This document shows, piece by piece, positions 6,901 to 47,602 of a stretch of DNA of 64,000 bases. This DNA comes from Collybia mongolica (Eukaryota; Basidiomycota; Agaricomycetes; Agaricales; Clitocybaceae): positions 2,852,001 through 2,916,000 of the forward strand of contig JAAXNY010000010.1 of NCBI GenBank assembly GCA_013420905.1, written 5' to 3'. The notes beneath the pieces were generated by a model that ran no database searches, was not told where the DNA came from, and saw only the letters and a list, made by a program, of their open reading frames with translations. Every line of letters starts with the position of its first letter. The first letter of the stretch is position 1. Both the position numbers and the translations under genes were made by a program.

Positions 6901-7294
6901 CAAAACCAGGGTTGCTGCGAAAAACCATCTCGTTCTCGACGTTATGGAGCCCACGCTGCATTACAGTTAGTCGTTTGCTATGAAGAGATTTATCAACAAC
7001 CAACGTATGCAGTGGGTTCAATCTCTGATACGTCAATCTGTGGTATCGCATGTGAATTTGGATGCATAGCGCTTGGGCCACCATTCTACTAACCTTTTGT
7101 CCGCCGTTGGTGTAGATCTCAGGATTGTCGGTTGTGTTACAGATTTTCTTGAGAATAGTTGTCTTTCCCGCGTTGGCTCGGCCAATGATGAGAACGCGGA
7201 ATCGCCCAGCTCTCGTTTTCAAATCCGCGCGCCTCTTTTCAACTGCCTGCATGTCGACGACAGCCGGGGCTTGTGAGCTATTTAACTGGGACAT
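3958..7294 (-). CDS. G-domain (P-loop GTPase) protein, many exons, 3' half through a microexon array
   Basis: The model starts at ATG 7294 (MSQLNSSQ). Exons read as 7294-7094, 7022-7005 (an 18-nt microexon), 6955-6783, 6719-6640, 6591-6400 and 6333-6213, all with matching phases and GT/AG ends. The P-loop GRANAGKT is at about residues 38-45. The G3-type DSRGFEAGG follows in exon 3, and TKCE in exon 5 occupies the G4 position. This combination matches the multi-copy G-domain proteins of Agaricomycetes, whose biological role is not established. Distal exons are 4547-4506 and 4443-3958, both open in phase 0; the last reads LKKLHHLLALSIIAEHLTI onward to a TAG at 3958. Between 6213 and 4547 lies an array of intron-like repeats. 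Exon 6 ends in phase 2, so at least one linking exon in 5960-6212 is unresolved. The G domain is certain; the 3' model is an inference. Confidence 0.7.
4607..5962 (-). repeat. Tandem array of 22 intron-like units (mostly 63 bp) separated by variable 3-nt putative microexons
   Basis: Units 1-12 (starts 4607 to 5300) have an exact 63-bp period. Units 13-22 (5361, 5423, 5486, 5548, 5611, 5674, 5741, 5815, 5876, 5948) vary from 61 to 74 bp. On the minus strand each unit reads acceptor (usually CTGCAG; also CAGCAG, CTGTAG, CTACAG, CAACAG or GTGAAG), then three nucleotides, then a perfect donor GTGAGT or GTAAGT. The donor consensus is kept in all 22 units, while the triplet takes many values (GAA, AAA, TAT, CGA, CTT, GAT, AAT, TGG, ACT). 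The remaining 60 nt has the size of a normal basidiomycete intron and holds a GCTTGAT branch-like stretch near its 3' end. Because several unit lengths are not multiples of three while the triplet stays three, simple protein repeats are unlikely. Splicing has not been observed. Confidence 0.8.
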
Positions 7295-9470
7295 ATGTAA
7301 CAGCCTCACATCCCATTTAGTCTTATAGACGTCATGTGAGGGTTGAATGGGTCACATACTGTGATACAGTATAGGTTGCTTTGTTGCAAAGGTGTTCAAA
7401 ATCGTTGAGAGCACAAGAGCGATCGAGTTATCGGAGGAGCGGATATCGATGATCTTCAAGTTCCACGCTCAAGTGACACGGGCGTCGTCTATTTGGCTCA
7501 CCTCCGAGTCCCGACGTATCCATCCTCTTCATGTCGCTCAGGCGGTCCTGCTCCTACGTGTGCATGAACATTGAGCACCCGTGTTATGGCACTAAATTTC
7601 GGACCGTCTATGCAGCTGAAGTACCTCTCAAGAATTTATCCAATTTGCCACCCGATTTCGAGGATTAAAGTCACCGACTGTCAGCACCTGATATTCCTAT
7701 CTATTGCGTTTATCTCCATCACACTCGTTCTTCGAAACATTGGAAATTAACCCACCCTTGGCTTCTCTGTGGGTTTCGATGCTTTTACCAATGTATGGAC
7801 ATAGACGTTTCAACAGCCTTACACATTTTCAACTAGTCGCCATATGCACCGCCGAGACACCGCAAGTATTGAGTATCTGGCTTGCTTGAATTTGAGGAAG
7901 GAATAGTCTTAGGTTCCTCATACATTTTGTGGCGTCGTAGGTTGACCAAATCGGATAGAATTGCAAGAGCCCCAAAGACTGCAGGAGCTGAAGCGCCAAA
8001 TGAACCACAAAATAGATGTCCTCCATCAGTGGTACAATATTACTCTTTTTAAGGTCAAATCATCAAGGTTGGAGGACAGATATTTGCTATATAGTGTCTG
8101 GTCCGGGCTTCTGGCGTGAGCCCAGATCCTCTTTTTTCCTGCTCTAAATACCGATTAACCTTGCAATGACTCCTCAGCTTTATCTTCCTTATTTCTCAAA
8201 GGTCTTCATCAGCCATGGACAACCTGGACATGACCACAGACGCCCTAACATGTGCCCCCGCCCCGACCCCCCCACACAACATCGAACTCTAGGCTACTTA
8301 CATCGTTCTTGCACCAGCTCAGCTTCAGCCACGTGGCCCATCCTGACCAATATTCGGGTTGTCCTATGAGGCGTGACCCAAGTGCGTTGTGTTCTTCACT
8401 CCCCTGACTCCGGACGTCTGATAACAACTTGGGCCTTACGAATGATGGGCTACAACGCTAGCAAATTTGTGATGCTACTGCTTCTGGTGTAACTGATGGT
8501 GAGAGCATCAGGACTCTACATACACAATGGATATCCTGACTCGTGATCACAGCCTTCTGACCGTGATCGCCCAACTCCCAATGTAGTTTCCTCCGCCCCT
8601 CGTCAGCACCATTCCTACTCCCATTGTTTTTGATCACGCCAGAATGGATGTGGGTCAAAAACCCGGACTCGACTCAGCGATATGCACACGCAAGGCGCCA
8701 TCTCATACATTATCATTACCGAATCCCCCCACGCCTGGTGCTACGTACGAACCTGAGCTGGAGCTGTTTGGGTCGTTGTTTGACTGTCTGTTCCTGCTCG
8801 TAGCGAAGGGTGCGAAGCTTTGGAGGTGAGGTAAGGAGCCGTTGGAGCGTTTCTGCGACTTGAAGAGACGATGCCTGCATGTATAGGGAACTGAGTGTGT
8901 TTGGATTACCCAGTGGTTCTATGTTTTTTCCGGCCACATTGTTGTAGTGTTGCAACAAATTGGCATCCAGTAGATGGGGACTAACCTGAGGTCCCTAGGC
9001 TCAGATCTAGCAGCACCGAATGTGGTGGCATGGTACTGGCATTGGTGTTGGTGTTTTTGCTGGCACTCGCATTATCATTGACAGAGAATCACACTCCGTT
9101 CAACTACAATACCACAACCAACAAAAAGGAATGGTTAATAACATCACTCAGAAAGCCCAGGTGACGAAGAAACAAACTCACAAACACCCGCCGTCCCGTC
9201 CACCCGCCCGACCCTCCAACCAACACCAGCCTCCACAAACCCACCCCGCACGCAGATCGGCGCGCGCAAGCGCAGGATGCCGGGCACGTATGACGGGCCT
9301 TCGCTGTCCCTACCCCGATCCCCGTTCTGGTTTCGATTTTGACTTCAGCGTTGGCCTTGGCCATGGTGCGGCCCCGCATCCCCTACAACAAGCCACCCAT
9401 TTCTCACCGTGACCTCACTGGTCCGCCCTCCCTTCGCCCCTCCCCTACCCCGTCGTCAACTAAACGCGGG
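7295..9470. other. No supported gene
   Basis: Short ORFs on both strands overlap without domain signatures, consistent intron boundaries or repeated structure. The stretch 7900-8050 on the minus strand is open (65 codons) but not recognisable. Nothing else is reported here. Confidence 0.4.
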
Positions 9471-14493: not shown

Positions 14494-16429
14494 TTAAAAC
14501 ACTCCAGATTCTCCCATCTCTCTCAACAAACCGTTCAGCGACATCCTGGCCATCATCATGTCAACCTCATCCATACTCTTCCCCGTATGTTCTGACTCTG
14601 GGCCGTCCTCATTCAAGGGAAAGAGGTCACTCTCCTTCTCAGGTTCGGCCCCGTCGACAACCCAAGGGCTAGCGCTGTCTTTCCAAAAGCTCCCGGTTAC
14701 GACCGTCAACACCATCTGGAGACCTTGCCCGTTTGCGATCGTGCTCTGTATTATGGTGAATTTACCTGGATTTTCCCTTGCCCGTTCGATGAGGGCGTCG
14801 TTCCTCGCCTCCGCGTTGGTAGACCCGTTTATCTCAGGAAGGTTCTTCTCGTAGTCCTCGAGGGGGGCGACTGAATATTTCGGTGGAAGCTTGGTGTAGT
14901 CAATGTAGATCATAAGAGCTGTTTTGGTCATCTCAGGATATCTCTCCGACGCAAGGCGACGAAGGCCAAGTAGATGGTTTCGGGCATCCCGGGTAAAGAG
15001 GTGGTGAAAGAATGCCGAATCAGTCTTTGAAATAGATTGGTATTTTCCTTCTGTAAACTCAGTGAGTGCATGGGCCACGATGGGAATTAGTGTGGGATGT
15101 ACCCAAACGTTCGCGTTGTTTTAGTTTGCACATAGTTTTATGCCCGCCTTCCTTCCATGCAGTAACTTGACACTCTTTGGAACAGTAGAGAGTGGTCGAA
15201 CATGAACCGCACTTTCGGAAATTGTTCTTGGCGTCAATTTTATGACACTGGTTGGTACTATGAAGGGGTGAAATCGAAAATGCGCGTAAAATGCGTACCT
15301 GGACATTATCACAGGTCGCGCCTTTCCCCTTCAGAGCGGTAGCCTGTAATGTCACCAAAAAGCGCTCTAGGGCTAATTGGCGGAAGTTGTTCCACGCATC
15401 CTTAGCCATACTCCCTTCGATTCGCTCTCTATGGGCCGATTCGTCCAGCTTCTTGATTGCCCTGTCCACTGACTGAATTACAGACCGATACACCAGATAT
15501 TTTGGGAGGATGTCCCTCACGATACACAGTATCATATCACAATCCTCAGGGTCCAGTTTGTGAAAATGCGGACTACTATCCATGAACGCTTTCAGAAGAC
15601 CCGCTTGGATGGACTGGCAGACCCATGAAAAGCCATCCGTGGATTCAAGGCAGTTTGCCAGGTAGCCAAAAGATGCCACCATAGTATTTAATAGCTCAAG
15701 ACCACCACTCTCGTTCAGCTTTTTCGTTGTATCTAGCGCGATTTTCGTGCACTGGGTAATTATGTTTGAGTTTAGAAAGGCATGGCGTAAGGGGTGGTCC
15801 GGCTCCCGGGATAGATGGCCTATTAGATCGAGATAGATCGTGACACGGGTCCCGTCCATGCGTGGGCCGTTGTTGAGCGCAGTTCGCAAGCGCGACAGCG
15901 CCAATTGAACGACGTTGTCTGTGCTTCCGCCGGCAGCCGCAACGACCCTGTCGACCGCGGGCCGCCTTTCATCGCGTAGAAGCCCATCCAACGCGGCCGA
16001 TGCACTTGGAATATCAATGATGGAAGGGACGTTGTGCTTATCCTCGAGGATCCACATCTGGGTAGCGATCTCGATACTCCCTCTGGTATCGCTCATGACC
16101 TTCCGGGCCTTGTCCGAGCGGCTCAGAGAGTACCACGTTGCAGTGATGACGTCAAGGTTCGACTTCTGCGTTTCGGCGCCCACAGCTGGACTTTGGAAGC
16201 GTCCTGCGAAGAAGAACGCGCTCCATTTGAATACCCCCGGCCAGGCTTGGATGATCTCGTCACCGTGATTGTCGTGGTTCTGCATCTGCAACGCGTTTGC
16301 GGCCTTGGTCAATCCGACCATGGACATGAAGGCACGGTCTGAGACGGGAGTACGTTCCCTGGCCAAAGAAGGTTCCGTTGGGCAAGCGTTGGCGTCTAGG
16401 TGGTGGAAGAAGACGCCGAGGATCCCCAT
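14494..16429 (-). CDS. MYND-type zinc-finger protein, 3 exons
   Basis: Exons read 16429-15299, 15247-15103 and 15050-14494. The N-terminal ~375 residues form a helical, armadillo-like or unassigned region (for example LALSRLRTALNNG, VRDILPKYLVYRS). The MYND finger starts with CDNVQ, is cut by a 51-nt intron, and continues as CHKIDAKNNFRKCGSCSTTL then YCSKECQVTAWKEGGHKTMC. This supplies the Cys/His ligands expected of this protein-interaction zinc finger. A C-terminal ~190-residue acidic region follows. The 51-nt intron (15298-15248) is open in frame, so retention would insert 17 residues inside the first zinc-binding pair. Large multigene MYND families are common in Agaricomycetes; the specific role is unknown. 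It is divergent from the RhoGAP gene. Confidence 0.85.
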
Positions 16430-16860
16430 AGACAGTAACTCTGGGGCCTGCGATTTGAGATCGGGTTGAATAATGTCAAAGCCAACACCATGGTTTGCGA
16501 CGTTGGTTCCGCACCTCCTGCCACAGGTTTGCGATTTCCATTAGGTCAACAAGGATACCTCGACGCGCATTGTCGAGTGACTATGTCGAACATGTATACA
16601 ACTCCTGAGAGGTCGGTCAAATTAAGCAAAACATACTCTCTTAGGATTCTGTTTGATCTTTCTCAAGGTCTTCACCGGGTACATTATATGAGTCGGGCCT
16701 GTTCAGCAAAAGAGAAATGTGGAACTGAAGGAGCCGAGGAAGAAGCGTCGGGCCTCGGATCGGGGTCCGAGATCATATCCACAATAGTTTACGTAACAAG
16801 AAACTTGGCGAAACCCCACGTTTTGACCGCGACCACCCTCCCGCTCGTACTCGCAGGGAA
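16430..16860. promoter_or_regulatory. Shared divergent promoter region between MYND and RhoGAP genes
   Basis: The 431 bp between the two opposing start codons holds no recognisable gene and must contain both promoters. No TATA box or defined operator could be assigned with confidence. Confidence 0.45.
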
Positions 16861-19408
16861 ATGCCCCCCAACCCTCTCAGTCTCAAGCAGAGGCTCGCAG
16901 CGCTTTCCAACTCCCCTTCGTCCCCGACCTCACCATATGGGCAAGAACCCCCGCGCTCACCGATAGGAACAAGACGGAAGCCTTTTTTCAACGCCCCGTG
17001 GGTGAAGCGGCAGCATGAAGCCGTCGTGGGGAACGGGGTGTACGGGGAATCGGAGATGGTGCAGCAAGTTATGGCGAAGATGATCTTCCAGGCCGGAGTG
17101 GACTTCGAGTGGGTGTCATAATGTTCTGGTTACTTATAATGTTCACTTGACCATCCGTGTGACTGCGTAGGACCCGACCAATGTATGTCGAATCTTACAC
17201 CGTCTCCGGCTGGGATGATAAAACGTCAAGGAAGGGTGGTCCTTAATGCATCTGCTCTACCAGATCCGCAGGAAGTTTCCTACGACTTGTTGCTTTCGTA
17301 CGTATGGTTAAGTGGCGTCTCAGTATCTACAATTAACATGCATGGTGCAGGCGAATACTCTCTTACCTTAACCTCTATGGTCAGTTCATACGAGCACCGA
17401 CCGTCAGATGGGATATTGAATGCGCCACATTAGTTGAATCTGATTATACCGTGGTGTTCTTCGCGGCAGGAGGGAAGCATACGCCAGGCTGGAACTGGGT
17501 CTGGAAAGCGTATCGTTGTTTGAGCAGGAAGTACCGAAAGAATCTGAAGCGGCTTGTACGTCATATTTCTTTCTATCTCCTTCAGCGACACTGATCCGTG
17601 ACCCTAGTATATCGTTCACTCCTCGTTCTTCTCGAAAAGTGTGTTTTCGGCTGTTCTTTGTTATCTCCGCAACGGGTCTGACCCAACTCAGTGTTATTCT
17701 CCCTGGCTGGCGCCATCATTAGGTACACTTTTTCTGTGACTTTTCTTGAAAGGTTTTCTAAATCCTGACCAGCCCCAAATTTTTCCGGAAACTACAATAC
17801 ATCACGACATTGTCGGAGCTGGCTCACCATATACCACTAACTCAGATAGATATCCCTCCTGCAGTATATCAGTATGTCTTGAATCCTAACATGGGGCAGT
17901 TGGAGCTTAACTGCCTGCAGAGAAAATTTAAAGCATGAGAGAAAAATTTCACTCCCTGTTCCGAACCGTTCTAGTATCTTCGGAGTTCCATTGGAAGAGC
18001 TGATGGGATATAATGGCGAGAAAGGCGGCATACCAAGAGTTGTTAAGGACGCGATTCAATTTTTACGGGAGACTGGTGCGTTTTGAAAATTGGCGAGTCT
18101 ACCTGGTGATGGATCTATTTTTGCAGGTATGATGGAGGAGGGACTTTTTAGACGGTCTCCACAATCAGTCATGTTAAGAGCCGCTCAGGATGCTTACGAT
18201 CGAGGTATGTAATTGAAAGAAATTTGTTGTATCGCTAACGCTCTCTCAAGGAAATGTAGTGTCTCTGAACACTTTCGGTGATCCTCATCTGGCTGCAGTC
18301 CTGTTGAAAAAGTACCTACGAGATCTCCCAGAACCCATATTCCCCGAAAGCCTCTACCCTATGATCAATCGATGTCCTCCGCCAACCAGTGATCCCAACG
18401 ATATGACCAGCATCAACTATATCCGCGAAACGTTACTGCCGGAAATACCACCTTGTTCATACATCCTCCTCAGCCATATCCTGCGTAGGTGGATCAAATA
18501 GACCCACTGTCTTTACTCACGCAATCTCCATAGATCTAATGCACGAGGTTTCTCTGCGTTCGGCATCAAACCGGATGGATGCATATAACCTGGCGGTTGT
18601 CCTTTCTCCAAACTTAGTGAAGGGCTCCAACGTCACTCGCGACGTCATGATGTGCGCTGTCCCAGGCGGACCTGCAATCTTCGAGTCGAACGCTCCTAAT
18701 CGACCCAACGCGGCCTCTATATCGGAGCACCGAACCACGCTTGGGACAGTTATATGTATCTGTATCCAGCGGTACTACGAGGTGTTCGACGAAGTGTGGG
18801 ACAGGAGCGAGGCCTTGCCCCCGTCCCAGTCATTCCAGGACAGTACAACGGGGTCCTCAGCGAGGAGCTCTACATCGGGCAGCCCCCAGCCTCATCGGAT
18901 CTCGTTCCACCCTGATGACGACGACTCCATCGACGACGCTATGCTGGTCATGCCCATCGGCCCCGGCCAGCAGAGTAACGGCAAACCCGGCGGACCGCCG
19001 AGCGCGTGGGGCGCAGCAGCAGCGACGGGAGGTGCTGGGCAGACATACCAACCGCGCCACCGGAGTAACTTGTCGGGTGGCTCCTCGTCGGGCGTGCGGT
19101 CGGTTCATACGACGTTTGGGGAGAATGGGAATGGCTCGATAGGCGGAGGCGCGGGGTATGGGTATCCGTCGATGAGCAAGGCGAAGTCGATGATAAGCAT
19201 TGAGAATAGGGGGGCTGCGGGGGGCGGGCGGAAGGGGTCGATTGCGGTTGGGCGCGGGACGACGAGGAAGTCGAGTGGGGCTGGGGTAGAGGCGATTGGT
19301 ATTACTGCTGAGGGCTTTTTTAGCGCTCCTAGTTCGGCACCGCCGGTCCCTCCTGTGCCACGCAGCAATGGCGTTGCGGTTAATGGTGGTGGTGGTGGTG
19401 GTACGTGA
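16861..19408 (+). CDS. Rho GTPase-activating protein with N-terminal CRAL-TRIO-like domain, 12 exons
   Basis: Exons: 16861-17108, 17171-17182 (12 nt), 17235-17297, 17351-17379, 17434-17555, 17608-17638, 17692-17722, 17773-17871, 17921-18075, 18127-18204, 18251-18484 and 18534-19408, giving 658 residues with consistent phases. The first ~80 residues are disordered. Then comes a lipid-binding CRAL-TRIO/BCH-like domain (VVFFAAGGKHTPGWNWVWKA, then IVHSSFFSKMLFSLAGA). The RhoGAP domain starts at FGVPLEELMG. It carries the arginine-finger segment EEGLFRRSP, the AVLLKKYLRDLPEP helix and NLAVVLSPNLVKGSNV. The Ser/Gly/Pro-rich tail of about 200 residues is probably disordered. This architecture matches p50RhoGAP/ECM25-type proteins that switch off Rho-family GTPases controlling polarity and actin. 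Exons 2, 4, 6 and 7 are only 12-31 nt. Confidence 0.9.
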
Positions 19409-32338: not shown

Positions 32339-35008
32339 ATGTCCCGACTGCTCCGCGCTGTCTTTTCGCGGAGGACATTTGCGATCGCAACTGGAGGAAC
32401 CGCACTGGCAGCTGGTGGTGGATATTGGTATCTTAACTCTGGTCCCGCGTACCCACTTTCGACGAGGGAGACCCGCCGCCCACCACCGCCATGGACTCCG
32501 CCATCCAGGTCGGATATGTTAAAGACGTTAAAGGCGAGTGGGGCCATCAAGACCACGGCGGGGGACGGGGGGGAGTTTGACCTGCTCATTGTAGGAGGAG
32601 GTGCGACGGGGGCCGGCGTGGCAGTGGATGCAGCAAGTCGTGGCCTCAAAGTCGCGTTAGTGGAGAGGGATGATTTTAGTGCTGGTGCGTCACCCCCACC
32701 CTCCGTTCAAGTCCATCAACCGACCTTTTCGTGTTTGTAGGAACTTCGTCTAAATCGACCAAACTCGTCCATGGTGGCGTGCGCTATCTTCAGAAAGCGG
32801 TGTTCGAGTTGGATTACGATCAGTACAAGCTTGTCAAGGAGGCTCTGCATGAACGGAAAATATTCTTGCAGACCGCACCGTACCTCTCTGCGATGTTGCC
32901 GATCATGTTACCCATTTACAAGTGTGTGATTTCGTCATATTCTTGCCCTTCTTTCTGACCTTGTGCAAAAGGTATTGGCAAGTCCCATACTACTGGGCTG
33001 GATGCAAAATGTACGATGTGTTGGCAGGAAAGGAAAACATGGAAACGTCATACATCATGAGTAAAGGAAAGGCCCTTGAGACGTTTCCCATGCTCAAATC
33101 GGACGGTCTTGTCGGCGCTTTGGTTTATTATGATGGTGAGGAGATGGCTTCGCCCGCCCATTCGCTAATTTCTGACATCTGTCGTTAGGACAACACAATG
33201 ACTCGAGGATGAATATCGCCCTGATCATGAGCGCTGTGAAGCACGGTGCTACGGTCGCTAACTACTGCGAAGTAACCGAGCTCCACAAGTCATCATCTGG
33301 GAAACTCAACGGCGCTCGGCTTAAAGACAATCTGACAGGCGAGGAATGGAATATCCGTGCAAAGGTACGTAATCTCTTCGTCTCTTCACTTCCCCTGCCA
33401 ATTTGTTCTTCAGGGAATCATCAACGCCACTGGGCCTTTCTCTGATACACTGCTTACCCTCGATGACCCAACGCACAAACCTATCGTTCAACCCTCGTCC
33501 GGCATTCACATAACTCTACCTAACTACTATTCACCACGCAAAATGGGTCTCCTCGATCCGGCAACCTCAGATGGACGTGTCATCTTCTTCCTCCCTTGGC
33601 AGGGTAACACGATTGCCGGGACAACAGACTCGCCTGCCTCTGTAGAACGTGAGCCACGGGCCACAGAAGACGAGATTCGTTGGGTCCTTGAGGAAGTACG
33701 GCGGTATCTATCACCGGACATTAAAGTTCGCAGGGGGGATGTCCTGAGTGCCTGGAGTGGTTTGCGGCCGCTGGTAAGGAACCCGAGTGCTGCGAGCACG
33801 GAGGGCCTCGTCCGAAGCCATATGTTGCATGTCAGTGCGAGTGGACTCCTGACGATCGCCGGAGGTAAATGGACAACGTATAGAGCAATGGCTGAGGAGA
33901 CTGTCGATATGGCTGTTGATGTCTTCCAGCTAGGTGGTCGAGTGACAAACGGATGCGTGACCGATACACTGAGACTTGTGGGCAGCGATGGGTGGAGCAG
34001 GAATATGTTCATTGGGTTGATTCAACGGGTGAGGAATACCCCTGATCGGTATTGTTTCAGAGGATACATTACTAACACCGTGTTTTAATCAGTATGGGTT
34101 GGAAACGGAGGTAGCCCGGCACTTATCGGATAATTATGGAGACCGTGCATGGACGGTGTGTTCTCTGACAGATCCTACTGAGAAGAACTGGCCTCGATAT
34201 GGAAAGCGCCTTTCTGCCCAATATCCTTGTACGTCATCCCTCCGGGCCACCTCAGTCAAATCCTCATTGGTACCCTAGTTATTGAAGCTGAAGTCCGCTA
34301 CGCGGTGCACCATGAGTACGCACAAACCGCCGTCGATGTCCTCGCGCGGCGCACACGCCTGTCTTTCCTTAATGTGCACGCTGCGCTCGAGGCGCTCCCG
34401 CGGGTGGTCGACATCATGACAGACGAGCTCGGCTGGTCGTGCGCGGAACGCAAGGCCCAGATTGCACAAGCTGTCGAGTTCTTCGGCTCGATGGGGCTGG
34501 CGCCGGGCGCCGTGACAAAGATGCCCGAGCCGGTGCCTAGAGGGTGGGCGGAGAAGGCCTGGAGCACACTTACGAGCGGCTCGTGGATGTTGGGCCGGGG
34601 CGGGAAGGAGGCAGGGTACAGTTATACTCGTGCGAGATTCGAGGCGGGAGAGTTGGCAGCGCTCCAGAGTGCGTTTGCGCGAAACGCGAGCGTTAGGGGT
34701 GTTGATGGAGAGATGAATGTGAAGGCTGGAAAGGTGGCGGAGGTGTTGAGGGATGTGCCAGGCTATGCGGGGATCTCGGAGAAGGAGTGTTTGTATGTGC
34801 TTGAAGAGGCTGGGTTTGGCGCGGGCGCGGAAATTGGGTTCCACGAATTCGTTGAGGTGTGTAATGTGGTGCCTGCTCTGAAGCTTGCATTCTGATGTTG
34901 GGTTGCATCTAGGTCTGCGGAAACTTGAAGGAGATTGCTTTTGCCCCTGCTCCTGGAAAGCAAGAAAGGTTGAGTATCCCCGTCGAAAAGAGTGGTGGAG
35001 GAATATAA
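32339..35008 (+). CDS. GUT2: Mitochondrial FAD-dependent glycerol-3-phosphate dehydrogenase, 8 exons
   Basis: Exons: 32339-32684, 32741-32921, 32972-33135, 33189-33364, 33414-34028, 34093-34228, 34279-34856 and 34913-35008, giving 763 residues. The enzyme oxidises glycerol 3-phosphate to dihydroxyacetone phosphate and passes electrons to ubiquinone at the inner mitochondrial membrane. The N terminus MSRLLRAVFSRRTFAIATGG is basic and followed by a short hydrophobic stretch, fitting a presequence and anchor. The FAD-binding Rossmann motif is DLLIVGGGATGAG, followed across an intron by GTSSKSTKLVHGGVRYLQ. GNTIAGTTDSPASVEREP and TIAGGKWTTYRAMAEETVD are further family blocks. The C-terminal ~110 residues resemble the degenerate EF-hand region of mitochondrial GPDHs. 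The last exon (CGNLKEIAFAPAPGKQERLS) was chosen because reading through its intron ends early at 34895. Confidence 0.95.
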
Positions 35009-36612: not shown

Positions 36613-39600
36613 ATGTCTAATGGTCTGAACCCTGTCAGGCCTCTGGCGCGGAACTATTTTTTCCTCGCAACACTCATTTTGGGTATTGTGCGTCATCCGA
36701 TAACTCATTGATCAGCTGAAAATTACTGATAATAAAAAATATATTCAGCTGTCATGGGGGCTTTCTCTGGTCGCCCAATCGTTTGTAGTTGCCACTAGTA
36801 AGCCTTGAAATCCTTTTATTGGTCTTCTCAGCTAACCTTTACTATTGACAAGTTGGCAATGCTCCCGTCGGGACCCTCTGGTTTGCAGCTGCTCTCCAGA
36901 TAATAATAATCTTCGCTCTCCTCCTCTCTCTCCTCTCCAACACCCTGTCAACTCACCGTCACCAACTATCTACATTCACTATCCTTACAATCCTACTCGC
37001 AGCCATTGGCGTGAACAATAATCTCTACGATTCTTTAACCTCGCAAAAGATCACAGCAGCAGCATGGATCATCACAGCCGTCATAGACGGCCTTTGGGTC
37101 TTATTTTTTACTATGGAGCAGGAGTCTCCTCTCGTTAAGGTATTCATGGCGCTTGGCGCTTGCAGCGACGATAATGGTCAGGACGAAGATGCGCAAACCA
37201 GCATTCACCAGGTCAATATTGGAAATATCAGGAATAATAATAACAATAATATTGCAATGGAAGCCGAGCAAGGAGTTGTCGAGAAACTACCAGCCATCAC
37301 CCGTGTCACTACCAACGTACGCTCGTCTATGGCTCCTCCAACCAGGGCACGCAGAGGCACTAATGCTCAACTTCAATTGCCCCTCGGCACTCCTGGTACT
37401 CAAACGCAACTCACAGCAGTCGCACGGTCAGGTCCACGGACATCCCCAAGCCCCAGTGGCTCCAGGACATCGTTCGCTAGCCCCAGTCACATGCGATCTT
37501 TTCCAATTACCCCACGGTCACCTAGGACAACTGCTATCAATCAAAGGGATGTTTTCGCTCGCGAGCCCAGCAGCACCCGCGTCCCTCTCGGACACAACCG
37601 CCGACACTCCTCAGTCAGCCACGGTCCCCAATCTCCCAGCCACAGCGCTCAATCATCACTCGGAAGCTCCGGCGCCCAGTCTGAACTTTCCCAGCAAATG
37701 TCCGAGCTGGAACTCGAAATGGAATACATTCCCTTGAACGCACCCGGCGTAGAATCTATCCAGATGTCCGAACTCAAGCGATCCATCCCCTTGAACGCCC
37801 GCCAATTAGAATCTACCCCTGTCAATGGCACCTTCCCACTCAGTGAGCGCGAATTGGAAGCTCTCCCGATGAACACACGCGGCACCCGCTCGATCCCGTT
37901 GACTGAGCTTGCTACCGTATTCGATGTGGCAAGCAAGAACCTCCCTGGTGCTAATGGAAACGGAATCAATAGGTTATATAGCGAATCTAAGCGCACCTCC
38001 CGTGTCCTGCTTGATGGCAAGCGCGGCTCCGGTATATGGTCGGCCAAGGCCTGGGAAGACGCTGCAGCTCAAGCTCGCGCGGGGCAGGCGGCCAAAGCTT
38101 CCGCAGAGGCCAAGGATCGTGAGATCAAGGCTGCTGAGGAGGCAAAGGCCCGCGAGATCAAAGCTGTTGAGCAAGCAAAGGCACTCGCGGCTCTCGAGAG
38201 GCCGCGCGCACCGTACAAGGCTGAGGCTTTATTCTCCTGTAAGTCCTCGATCTAGTCCGACATTCTGACCCTTCGATCAAACATTCCTCGTTTAGATACT
38301 GGCACCTCGGATGACCCCTCTGAGCTTTCTTTCAAGAAAGGCGAGGTCTTGGACGTCTTCAACAAATCCGATCAATGGTGGGAAGCACGAACGGCTGATG
38401 GCAAACAAGGAAGTGCGTTTGCTTACGTTCATTCATCGTGATTCGTTGCTCAATGTATTTTAGTCGCCCCGTCGAACTATCTTAAGGTTATCTGGCGCAT
38501 TTCCCTCGTTGAATCCAGGCGCAATAGTGCTGTGGTCGAATCAAGGCGTAACAGTAACACCGAATCACTCCGTCGATCCCGTCGGGAGAGTGTCATGGAT
38601 TCCCGAAACAGCATCTTGTGGGATGCCGGACGGGACAGTGCGATCATCGAGAACGTCACCCACGCTGTTGCCGCCGATGCGACGACTCTGGAAGCTGTCA
38701 GCATTCCCAAGATCGTGGTCGACACCTCATCTAGGGTCCATGAGCTGTATCCATACAAGGCAGAAGCACTCCACTCATGTACGAATCTCACTTCATTAGG
38801 TCATGCACTGGCTGATTAACAACGTGGAAACATAGACGCTGGTGACTCCGAAGACCCTTCTGAGCTTTCATTCAAGAAAGGCGAGGTTTTGGATATTCTT
38901 ACTAAATCTGACCAATGGTGGGAGGCACGTACCTCCAATGGAAAGAAAGGTAGTGAGTACAGCAATCAGCTTAACATTGTTTGTCCATTCGTTGACGATA
39001 TTCTAGTTGCACCGTCGAACTATCTCAAACTCGTAACAGGCCGCCTTGATACCGTCATTGAGGTTGACCCTACCCCTTCGGCCGTCGCATCTCCGACAGA
39101 GACTGAGCCTGCTACTATCACAAATGTTATTTCGGAGCCACAAGAAGTATATCTCTACAAGGCAGAAGCTCTCTTTGGCTGTGCGTTCGGCTCCTCATTC
39201 TAATCTAGTCATTACTGATTCGGCGTTATAGACACGGCATCCCCCGATGATTCGACCGAGCTCTCGTTCAAGAAGGGAGAGTTACTCGACATCCTCACAA
39301 AGTCAGAACAATGGTGGCAGGCAAGGAAACAGGACGGGACACGAGGCAGTGAGTAATGCAACCTCCATGCATTTTTCCACTTTCTGACTAGTTTCTAGTT
39401 GCACCTTCAAACTACCTCAAGCTCGTGTCTACCGCTCCCACAAGCCCGATCCAGGAAACCAAAGCTGCGGCCCCGGAGACGATTTCTGTCACAGATATAG
39501 ACCCACAGGAAATCTATCCGTACAGAGCTGAAGCCCTCTATGCTTGTGAGTGGACTTTGAGCGATTCGGGTTGCCTTGGTGAGAACTAACTGTCTCATAC

Positions 39601-42600
39601 AGATTCGGCATCGTCAGACGACCCAGCTGAACTTTCATTCAAGAAAGGGGAAGTTCTTGACATTCTCAACAAGTCGGAACAATGGTGGGAGGCCCGAAAG
39701 TTGGACGGAACCAAAGGAAGTAAGTGACTCGACGGTTTCCATGGCAGGAGTGACACTGATATTTCGGCAGTTGCGCCCTCGAATTACCTCAAGATTACAT
39801 CTCGCATCTCCTCTGTACTGGTATCTGAACCAAAGGAGATCCCACTGGCAACGGCAAACATAACTTCGGCAATCCAAGATCCATATCCTTTCAAGGCGGA
39901 GGCGCTTTACTCTTGTGAGGCTGTTAACGCTTGTTCCCTGGGTTGAGACCTATCTAACGGTATCAACAGACACTGCATCTCCGGACGACTCGACGGAACT
40001 TTCATTCAAGAAAGGAGAGGTTCTTGACATTCTTACCAAGTCGGAACAATGGTGGGAAGCTAGAAAGTTGGATGGTACCAAAGGAAGTGAGGAGCCCAGT
40101 CATTTGATCCTCAAACCTGCGCTAATTATCGATTTTTTTCAAGTTGCTCCGTCGAACTACCTGAAAGAAATCACGCCAAAGGAGGATGCCCCTCTTAGCG
40201 CTACACCCGCTCAGGCCACGGAAATCACACCTCAGGAAATCTACCCTTACAAGGCGGAGGCCCTCTACGCTTGTATGCCTATTAGTTACACTCTATTATC
40301 TTAGTGCTCAGTTCATTTACAGACACTGGATCTCCCGATGATGCCACTGAGATATCTTTCAGGAAAGGAGAGATTTTGGATGTTATGACCAAATCCGATT
40401 TGTGGTGGGAAGTACGGAAATCCAATGGGACCAAGGGAAGTGAGTAGTGGCAGAAGAAGTCTTACCTGTCGGGCCATACTTATCAACCTCCTCAGTCGCA
40501 CCATCAAACTATCTCAGGGTTGTATCTCGCGTTCGTTCGATCCTCCCTCTTAACACCAGAGCGGTACAACAGGCTAGCCCATCTACAGAAGCCCCAAAGA
40601 CACCGACATCTGTGACCGCGACCCAGGAGGTGTATCCTTACAAGGCAGAAGCTCTCTTTGCTTGTAAGTCATTCAAGATTCATCTGAATCTGTTCACCTA
40701 TGCAATTCGCAGACACTGGCTCCCCCGATGACCAGAGTGAGCTCTCATTCAAGAAGGGAGAGGTTTTGGACATTCTCACCAAATCCGACCTTTGGTGGGA
40801 GGCAAGGAAATTGGACGGTACAAAAGGAAGTCAGTGTTGCGTTTCTCCGTATAACACGGCCCCTTTCATTGATACTGATACATCGTTATTACATCAAGTT
40901 GCTCCCTCCAACTACTTGAAAGACCTTAGCGTCTCAGTACCAGACTCTACTGTGGTAACCCATGCCCCGAGCGTTGAATCCGTGGTCTTAGAAGCGTACC
41001 CATATAAGGCCGAAGCACTTTTCAATTGTAAATAATTTTCTTGGCGCCACTCCAACTCAGCCTTACCCAGAGTCTTACAGATATTGCATCGCCCGATGAT
41101 TCGACTGAAATATCGTTCAAGAAAGGAGAGGTCCTTGATATTTTGACAAAATCGGATCTATGGTGGGAAGCGCGGAAATCCGATGGCACAAAAGGAAGTG
41201 AGTTATGACATGTGTTATGATCCTTCTCCATGAGCGCTCATCCATTCCTCCGCCTTCCTCAGTTGTGCCTTCCAACTTCCTTAGGTCAATTGAGGATGTC
41301 ACACCAAAGGCTACTAGCGATGAAACAAACGGAACATATCCTTATAAGGCCGAAGCACTCTTCGCATGTGAGCAGTCTCTTAGGTGACTTGGAACATACT
41401 CACGTAGTTTATGGATTTAGACACCGCATCCCCTGAAGATTCCACAGAACTATCCTTCAAAAAGGGAGAGCTTCTTGATATTCTTACGAAATCGGACCTC
41501 TGGTGGGAGGCAAGGAAAGCAGACGGCACGAAAGGAAGTAAGTCGGATTTGTCGTTCCGAATGATGAATGAGCCTAAACCCGCTTAGTCGCACCCTCTAA
41601 CTATCTCTTGGAAATCGGCGTTACTGCTCCCAAAGCACTAAATACAGTGGAGCCATATTTGTTCAAGGCCCAAGCGCTATACGCATGTATGTAATCATCT
41701 CTCTTGTCAGTGTTCTTTTCTGATTAGCTGGTATTTAAACAGATACCGCGTCCCCCGACGACTCTACTGAATTATCATTCAGAAAAGGAGAGATGCTCGA
41801 GATCCTTACCAAGTCCGATCTCTGGTGGGAAGCGAGAAAGGCTGATGGTACAACGGGAAGTAAGTTGCAGCGACCGTATATACGTTATGCCAAATACGAA
41901 CTCTACTCCCCCAGTTGCCCCTTCCAATTACCTCCTAGCAGTTGAGGGTAGATCTCAGCAGTCAACAGACGTTGCGGCAACCGTGGAACGTATCGAACAG
42001 GCCGAAGCCTTGTTTACTTGTGAGTTAGCTCATATTCAATCTCGCGTTGCTGCTAACTGATGTTACAGACACCGCATCCCCTGATGACCCCACTGAATTG
42101 TCTTTTAGGAAATATGAAATACTTGACATCCTTTCCAAGTCGGATATATGGTGGGAAGCAAGGAAGGCTGACGGTACTCAAGGCAGTAAGTTCTACGAAG
42201 TTCCGTGGCGATCACATTTTCAGTTGACTACTACTTATTTCATCAGTTGCTCCGTCAAACTACCTAAAGACTATTACAACGGCACCAGCTCAGTCAAACA
42301 ATATTACGGAAACAGAATCAGGGGTGCTCGAGGTTTATCCTTTCAAGGCCCAGGCGCTCTATACGTGTAAGCTAGGAGTTCGGGAAATTATTCATACTAA
42401 CAACCACATGATAGATACTGCCTCGCCAGATGACTCGCTAGAACTTTCATTCAAGAAAGGGGAAGTTCTTGACATCCTTACGAAGTCTGACCTTTGGTGG
42501 GAGGCCCGAAAACTTGACGGTACAAAAGGCAGTCAGTATTTTTCACTTTGTTATCTGGGTATGGCTACTGAACGGTTGCGTCTCGATTTCTGCAGTTGCC

Positions 42601-45600
42601 CCTTCGAACTATCTACAAGCAATTGAGAACGAAACTTCTAATATAACGTCGATTCCGACAGCACTCGAAGTCTACCCATACAAGGCGGAAGCTCTCTATG
42701 CTTGTAAGTGACTAGTCCTTTTTCCATGCGTGAGGGCCTCGAATTACAATAAACTACCAGATTCCGCGTCGACTGATGACTCGACCGAGCTTTCCTTCAG
42801 ACAGGGCGAAATTTTGGATATCCTCACGAAATCTGATTTGTGGTGGGAGGCCAGAAAGCAAGACGGCACAACCGGGAGTATGTTTATCACTGGTGTACAT
42901 GTCAAAATTAGTCCTGACCTTCGTTCACACAGTTGCCCCATCAAATTACTTGCTGGCCATTGACAATAAACCTTCCGCCGCAGCAAAAGATCTGTCTGAG
43001 GATATTTATCCTTACAGGGCAGCAGCACTTCATGCCTGTGAGCGGAATCCTTTCATTCTCGACTACTATTTATATAATTCTCGCATACAGACACAGCTTC
43101 GCCAGATGACCCGAACGAGCTTTCGTTCAAGAAAGGTGAAATCTTGGATATCCTCACGAAATCGGATCTGTGGTGGGAGGCCAGGAATATGAACGGTATC
43201 AAAGGAAGTGGGTAGCCTCAAATTTCGCTTTTCGTTCAAATAGTCCTCAAATGTTTCGGCAGATGCTCCGTCGAATTATCTTGTGGCCTTCGAAGACGCC
43301 CCTACCCTAGCCCTCGCGGCCCCTACCAGTAATGCCGCGCAGATACTATCTAAAGGAGTACATCTTGATAAAGCAGAAGCACACCATGCGTGTATGTGTT
43401 GTATTGCAGTCATGTTAGACTCGGGCGCTAATTCCCAACAGACACCGCCTCTGCCGAAGACCCAACTGAACTGTCTTTCCGAAAGGGAGAGTGTCTTGAT
43501 ATCCTTAGTAAGTCAGACCTATGGTGGGAAGCAAGGAAATCGGATGGAACGGAAGGAAGTTAGTCGTTTCTCTGTTTAGACTAGCCTTGTGTGCTGATGG
43601 GTGTTGCCGTAGTTGCGCCTTCAAACTACTTGAAGCTTCTCACTAGCGAATCCGTGAAGATGGAAAATAGCCAGGTTACGGTATCACCACATGAAGTTTA
43701 TCCTTTCAAGGCGGAGGCAATCCACGCATGTCCGTCTTCCAATTTTGCATCCGTATACAGATTTAATTATGTGACCTTAGACACAGCGTCTGCTGAAGGT
43801 CCATCCGAACTTTCCTTCAGAAAGGGAGAGGTCTTGGATATTCTTACCAAATCAGACCTCTGGTGGGAAGCCAGGAACTCACAGGGAAGGAAAGGAAGTT
43901 CGTGACATCTCTTTCAATGACGTTTGCTTTCATGATGACCTAACTTGTTTTAGTTGCACCGTCAAATTATCTACAACTCATCCTTGACTGGAACGCAAGC
44001 CCCGTGGTATCAACGCCGATATCAGATATGACAATATATCCGTACAAAGCAGAAGCTCTTCACGCCTGTATGTGGGCCTAGTCCTTCAGCCTTCGATTGC
44101 TTACCCGGCCACAGATACTGCATCATCCGAAGACTCTACTGAACTCTCTTTTAAGAAGGGTGAGGTACTTGACATCCTGACGAAATCGGACCTCTGGTGG
44201 GAAGCGAGGAAATTGGACGGCACAAAAGGAAGTGAGTACTTTCCTTCATAATTCACAAATATTTCATTTCGAGACTCATTCCTTCTTTTTGCAGTCGCAC
44301 CTTCCAACTACCTTGAATTGACATCTCTCGAAAGTGCTTTAACCGTTGAACCTGGTGCAATGCAGACCCGACAAATTGCCAAAGCAGAAGCACTCTACGC
44401 TTGTCAGTCGTTTCATTCTTCATACCTTTCTTCCTACTGACTGACTGTGCAAACCTTTCAGACACCGCATCTGTGAATGATGAAACCGAGCTTTCGTTTA
44501 GAAAGGGTGAAGTCCTCGATATCCTGACTCTAGCAGACCTCTGGTGGGAAGCTAGGAAGACTGATGGAACGATCGGCAGTAAGTGGCCTACTCTCGAGTC
44601 GGGGATTATTTTCGGAAGCCTCACTCTACTACCACACCAGTCGCGCCCTCAAACTATCTCAGTCTCATCGCCACCACAAGTTCATTATCATTGGATGAGG
44701 TTACGCTGACTGAAGAGGTTTACCCGTACCGCGCACAAGCTCTTCATGCCTGTCAGTCTTCAGCCGTACTTGTATTCCATATTACTCATATTGTTTTACA
44801 GATATCGCGTCTGTGGAAGATCCGGCCGAACTTTCGTTTAGGAAGGGTGAAATCCTCGAAATCCTAACCAACTCTGACCTGTGGTGGGAGGCGAGGAAGG
44901 CTGACGGAACGAAAGGAAGTTAGTCGCCCGTTTCATCCTACTTGTCACAAGCACTTACGGTTTCACCCTTAGTTGCGCCCTCAAACTACCTGCAACTAAT
45001 TGGTAGCTCAATATCCTTTGAGACAGTAGAACAATCGTCGACAGCGCTGGAAAACTATCCTTATCAGGCCGAAGCACTTCATGCCTGTGGGTGCTTTTAT
45101 TTCACACACAACATCACCCTAACCCGAGGACAGATACTGCATCATCGGATGACCCAACTGAGCTCTCTTTTCGGAAGGGCGAGGTTCTTGATATTCTCAC
45201 CAAGTCGGACCTATGGTGGGAAGCTAGAAAGTCAGACGGGACCCGAGGCAGTACGTTGCTCATATGGTGCCTCTTCTTCAGCCTCGCTCACTGCGCAACC
45301 TAGTTGCACCATCAAACTACCTAAAGCTCATGACCAGCCTTTCTACTAGCACCTCCGAAACAGCTATTAATGTTATTCCTGAAGTGTATCCCCACAAGGC
45401 AGAAGCCCTGTATGCTTGTACGTGCATAAACTTTACCACCATCGATCAACTGATTTAACCCTTTTTATGTAGACGTCGGTTCGTCAGATGACGAGAACGA
45501 GCTTTCATTCAGGAAAGGGGAGATTTTGGATATCCTGACCATCGGTGATCTGTGGTGGGAAGCGAAAAATTCTGTTGGCAAGAAAGGAAGTCAGTATAAC

Positions 45601-47602
45601 CCACCACTGCTATCTCGATCCAGGTTTAACATAATTATAGTCGCCCCGTCCAACTATCTCAAACTCGTTTCATCAAGTTCAACAGGCGAAAATGAGGTAG
45701 CGTCTGTTGAGAACTATCAAGATTCCTGTGCGAACGAAGAGTGTCAAGCAGAAGCCCTCTATGCCTGTCAGTGGTTTTTCCCCCTTTTTACCGTGGTCTT
45801 ATTGAATATTCGCGTAGATACTGCATCGGCTGCTGACCCCGCCGAAGTGTCATTCAGGAAGGGAGAGATGTTTACTGTTATCTCAAAATCGGATCTATGG
45901 TGGGAGGTCAAGAAAACTAGCGGGCAGCGAGGCAGTGAGAAACTTTCTTTCTGCATCTCGATATTGATGTTCACCAAATTTCTTTCCTAAGTTGCCCCTT
46001 CCAACTTCTTGAAGCTTGTGAAACCCGTCGCTGCCGAATCTGAAGTAATTGCAGCATCCGAGGAAGTCTATCCTTACAAGGCGGAGGCACTTTTCGCATG
46101 TGCGTCTTCTTCGACTTCGTTGTTAAGCTTTTAGGACATTTCTGATAAGAAAATTACAGATACTGGCTCCCCAGACGACCCAACAGAGTTGGCGTTCAGG
46201 AAGGGTGAGATCCTTGAAATTCTCACGAAGTCAGACCGTTGGTGGCAAGCGAGAACGTTGGACGGCAAGAAAGGCAGTAAGATTCTTTCTCCACATATTG
46301 CTGTCAATGCCTGACGTTCGTTTCGCAAGTCGCTCCCTCGAACTACCTACGAGAAATCTTAACTATGCCTGTTACCCTCGCAAGCTCCTCGACCAGTGTC
46401 GAAAGCGAGAATGCAGTCGCCATGAAACCGGAAGCCCAGGCTGATGAATTTTACCCCTACAAGGCTGAAGCACTCTTCGCTTGTGGGTGTTTTGTTCCAG
46501 GATTTTCAGGTGTATTGCTCACTGTCCGACATGTAGATGCAGGCTCTTCTGACGACCCTCGTGAACTTTCGTTCAGAAAGGGAGAAATCCTAGATATTTT
46601 GACGAAGTCAGACATGTGGTGGGAAGCCAGAAAGTCAGATGGAACAAAAGGAAGTGAGTGTTGACCCAAACATTCTCTCCTTGTTTTTGTATTTAACGGC
46701 CCGTTAGTTGCACCTTCGAATTTCCTAAAGATCAAATCACGTGTTTCGTCAGGCATGCTACTAAACTCGCAGAGGCTCAGCGTGCTGGATTTCTCCAACA
46801 TTAGACTACCGAACACCAACAATGCTGCTCCAACACCGGTTGCTTCTTCAAGTCAAGCACCTGCGCCTATATCAGTATCATCAGCAGCCATCACCTCGAT
46901 GAGTGCTGAACTCGTCAATATCAAGCCCGACGATGAGGAATTCTATCCATACAAAGCGGAGGCTCTCTATTCTTGTAAGCCGACTTGACCTTTCTCACAC
47001 AATCTATTCTCACAGTGTGCGATAGATGATGCTTCGTCAGAGGACCCAAGAGAACTCTCCTTCAGGAGAGGTGAAGTGCTCGACATCTTGACCAAGTCTG
47101 ATCAATGGTGGGAAGCAAGGAGGTCGAATGGTCAGAAAGGACGTGAGTACCATTCATTTCGAAATGGTATCATTGAAGTTGATGTGTCACGCCAGTTGTC
47201 CCATCGAACTATATGAAGATCAAGGCTCGTGTTTCATCTGTGCTCATGGGTCGACGCATGAGCACCATGGATTGGTCTGCTCGTGCTAATCCCGAGGCGA
47301 GCTCTCAAGCTTACCCTTACAAAGCCCGCGCCATGTATTCCTGTGAGTGCTCACCGACACCCCCCCGCCGCTCTTACCAATACCCGGAATTTTTATAGAT
47401 ACAGCATCACCAGAGTACCCAAGCGAGCTGTCGTTCAAAAAGGGGGAAATCCTTGAAATTTTGACAAAGGATGATGAATGGTGGGAAGCGAGGAAATCGG
47501 ATGGGAGCAAAGGCGGTAAGTAGCGTACACGTTTTTGTGTCCACCCATTGATTGTTCTTTTCAGTTGCTCCATCTAACTATTTGAAAGAAATTGTCTCAT
47601 GA
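36613..47602 (+). CDS. SHO1-like four-TM protein with 26 tandem SH3 domains (giant, about 55 exons)
   Basis: Exons 1-3 are 36613-36687, 36749-36797 and 36853-38238. They encode four hydrophobic segments (NYFFLATLILGI-LSWGLSLVAQSFVV, TLWFAAALQIIIIFALLLSL, LSTFTILTILLAAIGV, ITAAAWIITAVIDGLWVLFF) with the topology and sequence flavour of the fungal osmosensor Sho1. A ~300-residue linker follows, Ser/Pro-rich, with SIPLN-type repeats and a charged Ala/Lys/Glu helix near 38050-38210. Then come 26 SH3 domains of the form [48 protein letters not shown], counted by the WW pair at 38376, 38916, 39312, 39683, 40050, 40403, 40793, 41161, 41501, 41823, 42149, 42495, 42841, 43171, 43522, 43861, 44195, 44542, 44882, 45214, 45553, 45898, 46240, 46617, 47106 and 47479. 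The last ends NYLKEIVS-stop. Estimated product is roughly 2,700 residues. Sho1 normally has one SH3, which recruits the HOG-pathway MAPKK through a proline motif. Confidence 0.88.
38296..47602 (+). repeat. Tandem SH3-coding exon-pair array (26 units, about 350 bp each)
   Basis: Each unit consists of a short core exon of ~117 nt (examples 38296-38412 and 38836-38952), from the last Tyr of ALYxY to the Gly before APSNYL, and a second exon of ~130-315 nt from IAPSNYL through a variable linker to the next YPYKAEAL. Every intron I checked splits a codon after its first base (T|AC or T|AT, and A|TT or A|TC), so both exons are symmetric 1-1. Introns of 45-75 nt differ in sequence between units, so most duplications are not very recent. 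Units 11, 15, 18 and 22 have eroded YPYK segments (for example ERIEQAEALF, HLDKAEAHHA, QIAKAEALYA, EECQAEALYA). Confidence 0.85.

Follow-up and report, generated by a model that had tools for sequence, protein, structure and literature searches.

What is a fungal membrane protein of the Sho1 type doing with 26 SH3 domains? The question is raised by a gene, here called Sho1-L, in a 64,000-nt stretch of the Collybia mongolica genome (assembly GCA_013420905.1, contig JAAXNY010000010.1, positions 2,852,001 to 2,916,000 of the forward strand; this stretch is the window, and coordinates follow its numbering unless a contig is named). Sho1-L lies at 36613..47602 (+) and consists of a Sho1-type N-terminus with four transmembrane (TM) segments, a long linker and the SH3 array. 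The answer that we favor, with more belief than doubt, is that Sho1-L may serve as a membrane-anchored, high-valency docking scaffold that arose when a pair of exons was duplicated in tandem without loss of frame.

Modeled from the DNA, Sho1-L has 55 exons and a coding sequence of 8,046 nt, running from an ATG at 36613 to a TGA that ends at 47602 and is the only stop. All 54 introns are GT-AG and 47 to 69 nt long. The product, 2,681 residues, agrees with a preliminary description of this DNA, which had claimed ∼2,700 residues in exactly this interval. Exon 1 (36613..36687) holds the start codon, the N-terminus and the first half of TM1, and the 49-nt exon 2 (36749..36797) the remainder of TM1. 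The start codon is supported because the first 25 residues are identical to those that open P0001, a database protein from another species (whose source label, lgn, we take to mean SRA assemblies). Exon 3 (36853..38238) encodes TM2 to TM4 (residues 52-70, 80-96 and 108-126; 36882..37106), the long cytosolic linker, an Ala/Lys/Glu-rich stretch and the first strand of SH3 no. 1. Hydropathy shows TM1, TM2 and TM4 plainly and TM3 only weakly (19-residue mean of 1.36, 17-residue mean of 1.91), but this segment aligns with TM3 of an ordinary Sho1 encoded elsewhere in the genome, and the four N-terminal segments of the preliminary description are retained on this basis. The Ala/Lys/Glu-rich stretch (residues 445-493; 38061..38207) contains 33-nt repeats and, to judge by its composition, is probably a helical spacer ahead of the array. 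Tandem Repeats Finder reported this 33-nt repeat (38106-38182) and no array of SH3 units.

The array itself spans residues 492-2676 (38202..47584), and the protein terminates right after SH3 no. 26, in a last exon (47565..47602) that holds the end of this domain and the stop codon. The number of domains is the same by three counts: a pattern search of the modeled protein gives 26, PF00018 run on the six-frame translation of the 46-Mb genome places 26 of its 51 matches (a lower bound) in Sho1-L, and a query with the SH3 consensus places 26 of 35 there. Every unit scores 100 to 125 bits against a profile of the units. The WW pair and PSN occur in all 26 and the exact PSNYL in 22, much as first described (26 Sho1-type domains, all with WW and nearly all with PSNYL). 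Each repeat unit consists of two exons, i.e., a central SH3 exon of exactly 117 nt (26/26) and a linker exon of 99 to 315 nt that encodes the end of one SH3, an inter-SH3 linker of 14 to 86 residues and the start of the next SH3. None of the 25 inter-SH3 linker exons contains a stop or shifts the frame, each has a length divisible by 3, and each ties neighboring domains together; the array is therefore not a chance arrangement. As both exon types are phase 1-1, any number of pairs preserves the reading frame.

Descent from Sho1 is indicated by both ends of the protein. When the whole genome was searched with the TM region, the single match outside Sho1-L (40% identity; E = 1.0e-20) fell within an ordinary Sho1 gene on contig C6 (locus L042; G000:C6:3994250-3995480) with five exons, 338 residues, four TM segments and one SH3. 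The SH3 consensus of the array has yeast Sho1 (2VKN; E = 5.9e-15) as its best match among solved structures in PDB. The TM regions of Sho1-L and the ordinary Sho1 are 38% identical over 134 residues, and their first introns agree in phase (0, 1, 1, 1); both genes have the 49-nt exon 2 and the 117-nt central SH3 exon, in the same phases, and two phase-1 introns lie within the SH3 domain of the ordinary gene. Sho1-L thus combines TM homology, C-terminal Sho1-type SH3 domains and a shared gene structure, which place it in the Sho1 family by descent, and departs from the canonical form in having 26 SH3 domains versus one in all 57 other fetched Sho1 proteins with a TM match. The SH3 domains are presumably on the cytosolic side of the membrane.

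The ordinary Sho1 groups among ordinary Agaricomycete Sho1 proteins and is 85 to 88% identical to the four from other species with which it was compared (88% for that of Hypsizygus). Its presence rules out Sho1-L as the only Sho1 of the genome. The preliminary description had proposed a search for a normal single-SH3 Sho1 elsewhere, and the outcome does not support its own label of Sho1-L as the osmosensor. From TM homology and gene structure, we regard Sho1-L as a divergent paralogue of fungal Sho1 that stands beside an ordinary Sho1 in the same genome; osmosensing as such would probably be left to the latter. In a tree of N-terminal regions, the three Sho1-L rows sit on a branch of length 10 and have no resolved position.

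The array has a long history, with every unit separately maintained under purifying selection. SH3-coding DNA is at most 77% identical between any two units (mean, 67%), and the encoded domains have a mean identity of 69%. For 265 of the 325 unit pairs, no synonymous divergence (dS) could be computed, owing to saturation or a failed calculation; across the remaining 60, dS has a median of 2.1, and the ratio of nonsynonymous to synonymous divergence (dN/dS) has a median of 0.095 and a maximum of 0.25. Introns are barely more alike than shuffled sequences (means of 0.61 and 0.62 versus 0.59 and 0.61), and their maxima are no higher. Recent amplification is ruled out by the synonymous divergence and the dissimilar introns, and a pseudogene by the absence of an internal stop and a dN/dS of about 0.1 where it is measurable.

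A second species carries much of the same array. The Collybia nuda protein BDZ94DRAFT_1054728 (P0123; 1,406 residues), deposited as a hypothetical or SH3 domain-containing protein, is 85% identical to Sho1-L and has 11 SH3 units in frame, with two further ones matched in another reading frame. Each of its units 1 to 11 best matches the same-numbered unit of Sho1-L (0.96 for unit 1), each of its linkers 1 to 10 best matches the same-numbered linker (10/10), and in a tree of SH3 domains all 11 in-frame units are sisters to their Sho1-L namesakes. By its identity and this colinearity, P0123 is the orthologue of Sho1-L. The one-to-one pairing implies that at least units 1 to 11 predate the species split and have not been homogenized, which rules out concerted evolution for these units. 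The deposited model begins within the linker, and so lacks the TM exons, and departs from frame after unit 11, where its tail matches residues 1482-1606 of Sho1-L (units 12 and 13) in the +1 frame (E = 2e-47); this departure may reflect either a splice site wrongly called in the model or a genuine frameshift. Since the deposited orthologue is an incomplete model, the family may be under-recognized in databases.

Wider relatives were sought in a database comparison in which 132 proteins were fetched from candidates of about 300 to 3,045 residues that shared words with the queries (about 8,000 scored per search). One of the searches took in the best 120 of 421 matches, and the search with the N-terminal protein, which scored the 7,998 candidates sharing most words, missed ordinary Sho1 proteins. 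A Sho1 TM match is present in 59 of the 132 proteins, i.e., P0001, P0002 and 57 ordinary Sho1 proteins outside the Sho1-L group, each of which has one SH3. P0001 and P0002 are N-terminal parts of Sho1-L in relatives and contain no complete SH3, so that, among the candidates scored, Sho1-L is seen in apparently four related species (C. mongolica, C. nuda and the sources of P0001 and P0002). By profile counts, the largest number of SH3 domains in a fetched protein is 11, in the cut C. nuda orthologue, followed by 9 and 7. Several Sho1-type SH3 domains also occur in Leucogyrophana P0124 (nine), P0003 (five), Lactarius P0004 and Desarmillaria P0006 (four each). The partial Gigaspora margarita protein P0008 combines four with hydrophobic segments, although its membrane part has no significant match to the Sho1 TM profile (E = 7), and Rhizophagus irregularis P0018, P0022 and P0024, which their sources name Sho1, have two SH3 domains and five or six hydrophobic segments rather than four. 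Only the Gigaspora and Rhizophagus proteins among these named multi-SH3 proteins have hydrophobic, TM-like segments. The earlier suggestion that homologues with several SH3 domains be sought in other Agaricomycetes was thus rewarded by the C. nuda orthologue, which, together with the Rhizophagus and Gigaspora proteins, leaves the accompanying statement, by which multi-SH3 Sho1 proteins were unknown, without support. No many-SH3 Sho1 and no array of Sho1-type SH3 domains appeared in the titles and abstracts of the open-licence literature among the matches listed.

Sho1-type SH3 domains are also found on kinase-like proteins without a Sho1 TM region, which made up 7 of the 120 matches listed in one search and 3 of 10 in another (P0007, P0010, P0015, P0017, P0020, P0023, P0038, P0125, P0128 and P0131). 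P0124, with its nine SH3 domains, is a HET protein, and P0127, with two, is a NACHT protein. Fusions to kinase-like, HET or NACHT domains, often with tandem SH3 domains, come from Mycena, Marasmius, Exidia, Leucogyrophana and Favolaschia, among other sources, and are probably of several origins; the literature matches listed gave no description of them. The SH3 tree, built on 59 columns from those 93 domains of the chosen proteins that reached at least 48 residues and 40 bits, unites the 37 array domains of both Collybia species in one group with one change and a weak support of 74. At low support, units often cluster by protein (P0006, P0007 and P0009), which suggests repeated separate expansions, while those of P0124 are scattered.

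Whether the units could bind ligands was judged from residues numbered as in yeast Sho1, with Y311 and P352 added as ligand positions typical of SH3 domains. W338, P352, G346 and Y311 are invariant in all 26 units. D317 is present in 24, as is R342 (Lys in the other two), and position 355 has Tyr in 23 units and Phe in the other three; the core ligand residues Y311, W338, P352 and Tyr or Phe at 355 are thus found together in every unit. Positions were mapped by their spacing from those in the available part of PMC4904012 and from an alignment to 2VKN. The binding residues are conserved about as well as those of the fold, which favors ligand binding over a role as mere spacer, and several SH3 domains predicted from their residues to be ligand competent are therefore carried on one chain.

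Several observations weigh against a scaffold of 26 working domains. Position 309 is Tyr in 11 units, Phe in 8 and His in 7 (units 2, 14 to 17, 19 and 20). Alteration of this position lowers ligand affinity in yeast Sho1, according to an excerpt of PMC4904012, and the units therefore need not all bind equally; those with His309 may bind more weakly or otherwise. A Sho1-like residue at each of the six scored positions (Tyr or Phe at 309, Asp at 317, Trp at 338, Arg or Lys at 342, Pro at 352 and Tyr or Phe at 355) is found in only 18 of the 26. The TM domain, to judge by its branch length, is so divergent that conserved oligomerization or osmosensing should not be assumed. No yeast-like docking site was found in the expected partner: a Pbs2 orthologue is present at G000:C4:2829623 (81% in the kinase stretch) and its N-terminal frame is proline rich, but no [RKS]xLPxxP occurs in the three forward frames of L054 2098-3300, i.e., the 1.2 kb before and into the Pbs2 kinase region, with the 5' end of Pbs2 placed provisionally. 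The frame taken as the Pbs2 N-terminus has no [RK]xxPxxP and one PxxPxK. Genome-wide, the KPLPPLP pattern has five matches, as many as its reversed control, and on both counts a Pbs2 docking motif of the yeast kind finds no support in the sequence scanned. PxxP is not in excess in the linkers of Sho1-L (3 and 2 versus 1.7 and 2.4 expected), which rules out self-binding via PxxP-rich linkers.

The Sho1 branch is reported to be apart from the high-osmolarity glycerol (HOG) pathway in the basidiomycetes Wallemia and Cryptococcus (in the available parts of PMC4904012 and PMC6288190, respectively). For this reason, and for want of a Pbs2 motif, no HOG role is claimed for Sho1-L. Pfam Opy2 and PF14847 (Ras_bdg_2, tried for Ste50) had no match, and the controls were equally silent.

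The linkers offer two kinds of motif. RSFPITP (residues 256-262; 37494..37514) is the only class I-type RxxPxxP motif found in the long linker by motif scan; RSFP[IT]TP is kept in all four sequences, but the whole linker is well conserved, and RxxPxxP is not commoner there than in shuffled sequences (P = 0.18). Sites of the RRxS/T type are in mild excess over shuffled sequences both in the N-terminal linker (4 versus 0.9; P = 0.011) and in the linkers between SH3 domains (4 versus 1.0; P = 0.018). The four N-terminal sites are kept in all four sequences. The longest linker exon (38464..38778), between SH3 no. 1 and no. 2, carries RRNS, RRNS and RRES, and the three sites of this linker are kept in C. 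nuda. Regulation of Sho1-L by a basophilic kinase at such sites is plausible.

A membrane-tethered multivalent scaffold, as the preliminary description proposed, remains the best reading of Sho1-L in the light of its Sho1 descent, its 26 SH3 domains and their apparently ligand-competent surfaces. The SH3 domain is a textbook docking module. The Sho1-type TM domain would hold Sho1-L in the membrane, with 26 similar SH3 domains on flexible linkers facing the cytosol. As a single SH3-peptide contact is weak, avidity could then gather partners with proline motifs and cluster them, perhaps into a condensate. The protein may be regulated through the basic RRxS sites of its linkers. Yeast Sho1 forms planar dimers-of-trimers and has a scaffold role, according to the available part of PMC4411306; oligomerization of this kind, if present in Sho1-L, would raise the local valency further. 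As to origin, the exon structure suggests that a tandem duplication placed the linker that precedes the SH3 directly behind the last coding sequence of this domain, with the stop excluded, and that the resulting two-exon unit, both exons being phase 1-1, was multiplied by unequal exchange to 26 without a frame break. One duplication with a new joint, followed by unequal exchange, would be the most economical origin. We propose a bolder version of the mechanism only tentatively, and lean against it: in one lineage of mushrooms, a duplicate osmosensor may have turned into a membrane-bound polymer of 26 near-equivalent SH3 domains that nucleates a switchable signaling condensate at the membrane, with phosphorylation of the linkers as the means of tuning. 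If this is true, Sho1-L is the natural equivalent of the SH3/proline-motif polymers that have been engineered for phase-separation studies and, given Sho1-like oligomerization, each complex would present considerably more than 100 docking sites.

Other explanations of the array have to be set against a docking scaffold. Its growth might have been neutral or ratchet-like, with phase-symmetric exon pairs accumulating through unequal crossing-over, a few SH3 domains mattering and the rest being passengers or spacers. The repeat unit is structurally prone to in-frame multiplication, one SH3 is enough for each of the 57 fetched Sho1 proteins with a TM match outside the Sho1-L group, and Sho1-type arrays occur in other contexts too. 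Passengers would decay, however, yet the ligand core persists in all 26 units despite synonymous divergence at or near saturation, and, among the units compared, numbers 1 to 11 correspond one to one between two species with no loss, gain or homogenization. We therefore consider neutral growth unlikely. Less probable again is a structural tether, i.e., a beaded chain spanning a distance from the membrane, in which ligand binding is incidental. In favor of such a role are the length of the array, whose spaced domains extend over about 2,180 residues after an Ala/Lys/Glu-rich stretch, and the lack of a Sho1-type motif near Pbs2 and of a KPLPPLP excess in the genome, but a spacer has no need of W338, P352 and other binding residues that are as invariant as those of the fold.

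A part in self/non-self recognition or defense, with the array as a recognition or decoy module, is suggested by the Agaricomycete proteins in which Sho1-type SH3 domains accompany kinase-like, HET (P0124, nine SH3 domains) and NACHT (P0127, two) domains. We give this very little credence: Pfam finds only SH3 families in residues 1-552 of Sho1-L, and the rest is array; between species, the units compared show conservation and not hypervariability; those of Sho1-L stand apart, with weak support, from the units of the kinase-like, HET and NACHT proteins in the SH3 tree; and the titles and abstracts of open-licence literature on such a link hold nothing on SH3 arrays. Least credible is an artefact of assembly or modeling that conceals a smaller array or several genes. 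Annotation of such genes is evidently error-prone, as the C. nuda model has no TM exons and leaves the frame. Nevertheless, the C. mongolica assembly is 46 Mb in 26 contigs, the units are too different for misassembly, linker exons connect neighboring units without stops, and units 1 to 11 stand in the same order in C. nuda. Together with the dissimilar introns and the lack of a tandem array reported by Tandem Repeats Finder, the divergence and colinearity of the units rule out an assembly artefact.

Elsewhere in the window, exons of a flavin adenine dinucleotide-dependent glycerol-3-phosphate oxidase/dehydrogenase-like gene (DAO and DAO_C; 33336-34895, +) end about 1.7 kb upstream of Sho1-L. 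Glycerol is the product of the yeast HOG response, but the nearness of the two genes may be chance. An open reading frame (ORF) at 15059-16540 (-) encodes a MYND finger. Stretches slightly below the cutoff resemble RhoGAP in the ORF at 18407-19408 (+) and an Arf-type GTPase in that at 6737-7351 (-), and a Cys/His stretch in the ORF at 844-1947 (-) resembles, by eye, a retroelement zinc knuckle with no Pfam match.

With 26 near-equivalent, separately conserved SH3 domains, Sho1-L amounts to an extreme natural experiment in valency. It permits a direct test of selection on copy number and avidity versus single-domain specificity, with the ordinary one-SH3 Sho1 of the same genome as a built-in control, and the symmetric exon pair provides a clear route for the origin of such arrays.

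Among known systems, fungal Sho1 (yeast SSU81/Sho1 and the ordinary Sho1 on contig C6) shares the four N-terminal TM segments, the cytosolic linker and a C-terminal Sho1-type SH3 with Sho1-L, which differs in its 26 SH3 domains versus one, its long Ser/Arg-rich linker and its Ala/Lys/Glu-rich stretch. C. nuda P0123 has linkers 1 to 10 and units 1 to 11 in the order of Sho1-L, although its deposited model lacks the TM region and is off frame after unit 11. The other proteins with several Sho1-type SH3 domains have tandem domains that match the profile of the Sho1-L array, but in fewer copies. The animal proteins DNMBP/Tuba, ITSN1/2 and CIN85, which as far as is known are soluble, are docking scaffolds with multiple SH3 domains in a single polypeptide, as proposed for Sho1-L. 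Human DNMBP/Tuba has six SH3 domains and human ITSN1/2 five, according to an excerpt of PMC10453029, while the available part of PMC10786037 describes CIN85 as having three, as forming SH3-driven condensates and as having a valency that changes when a site next to a proline motif of the linker is phosphorylated. In contrast to Sho1-L, these animal scaffolds have three to six SH3 domains each, and none is known to carry a near-uniform array behind a four-TM domain.

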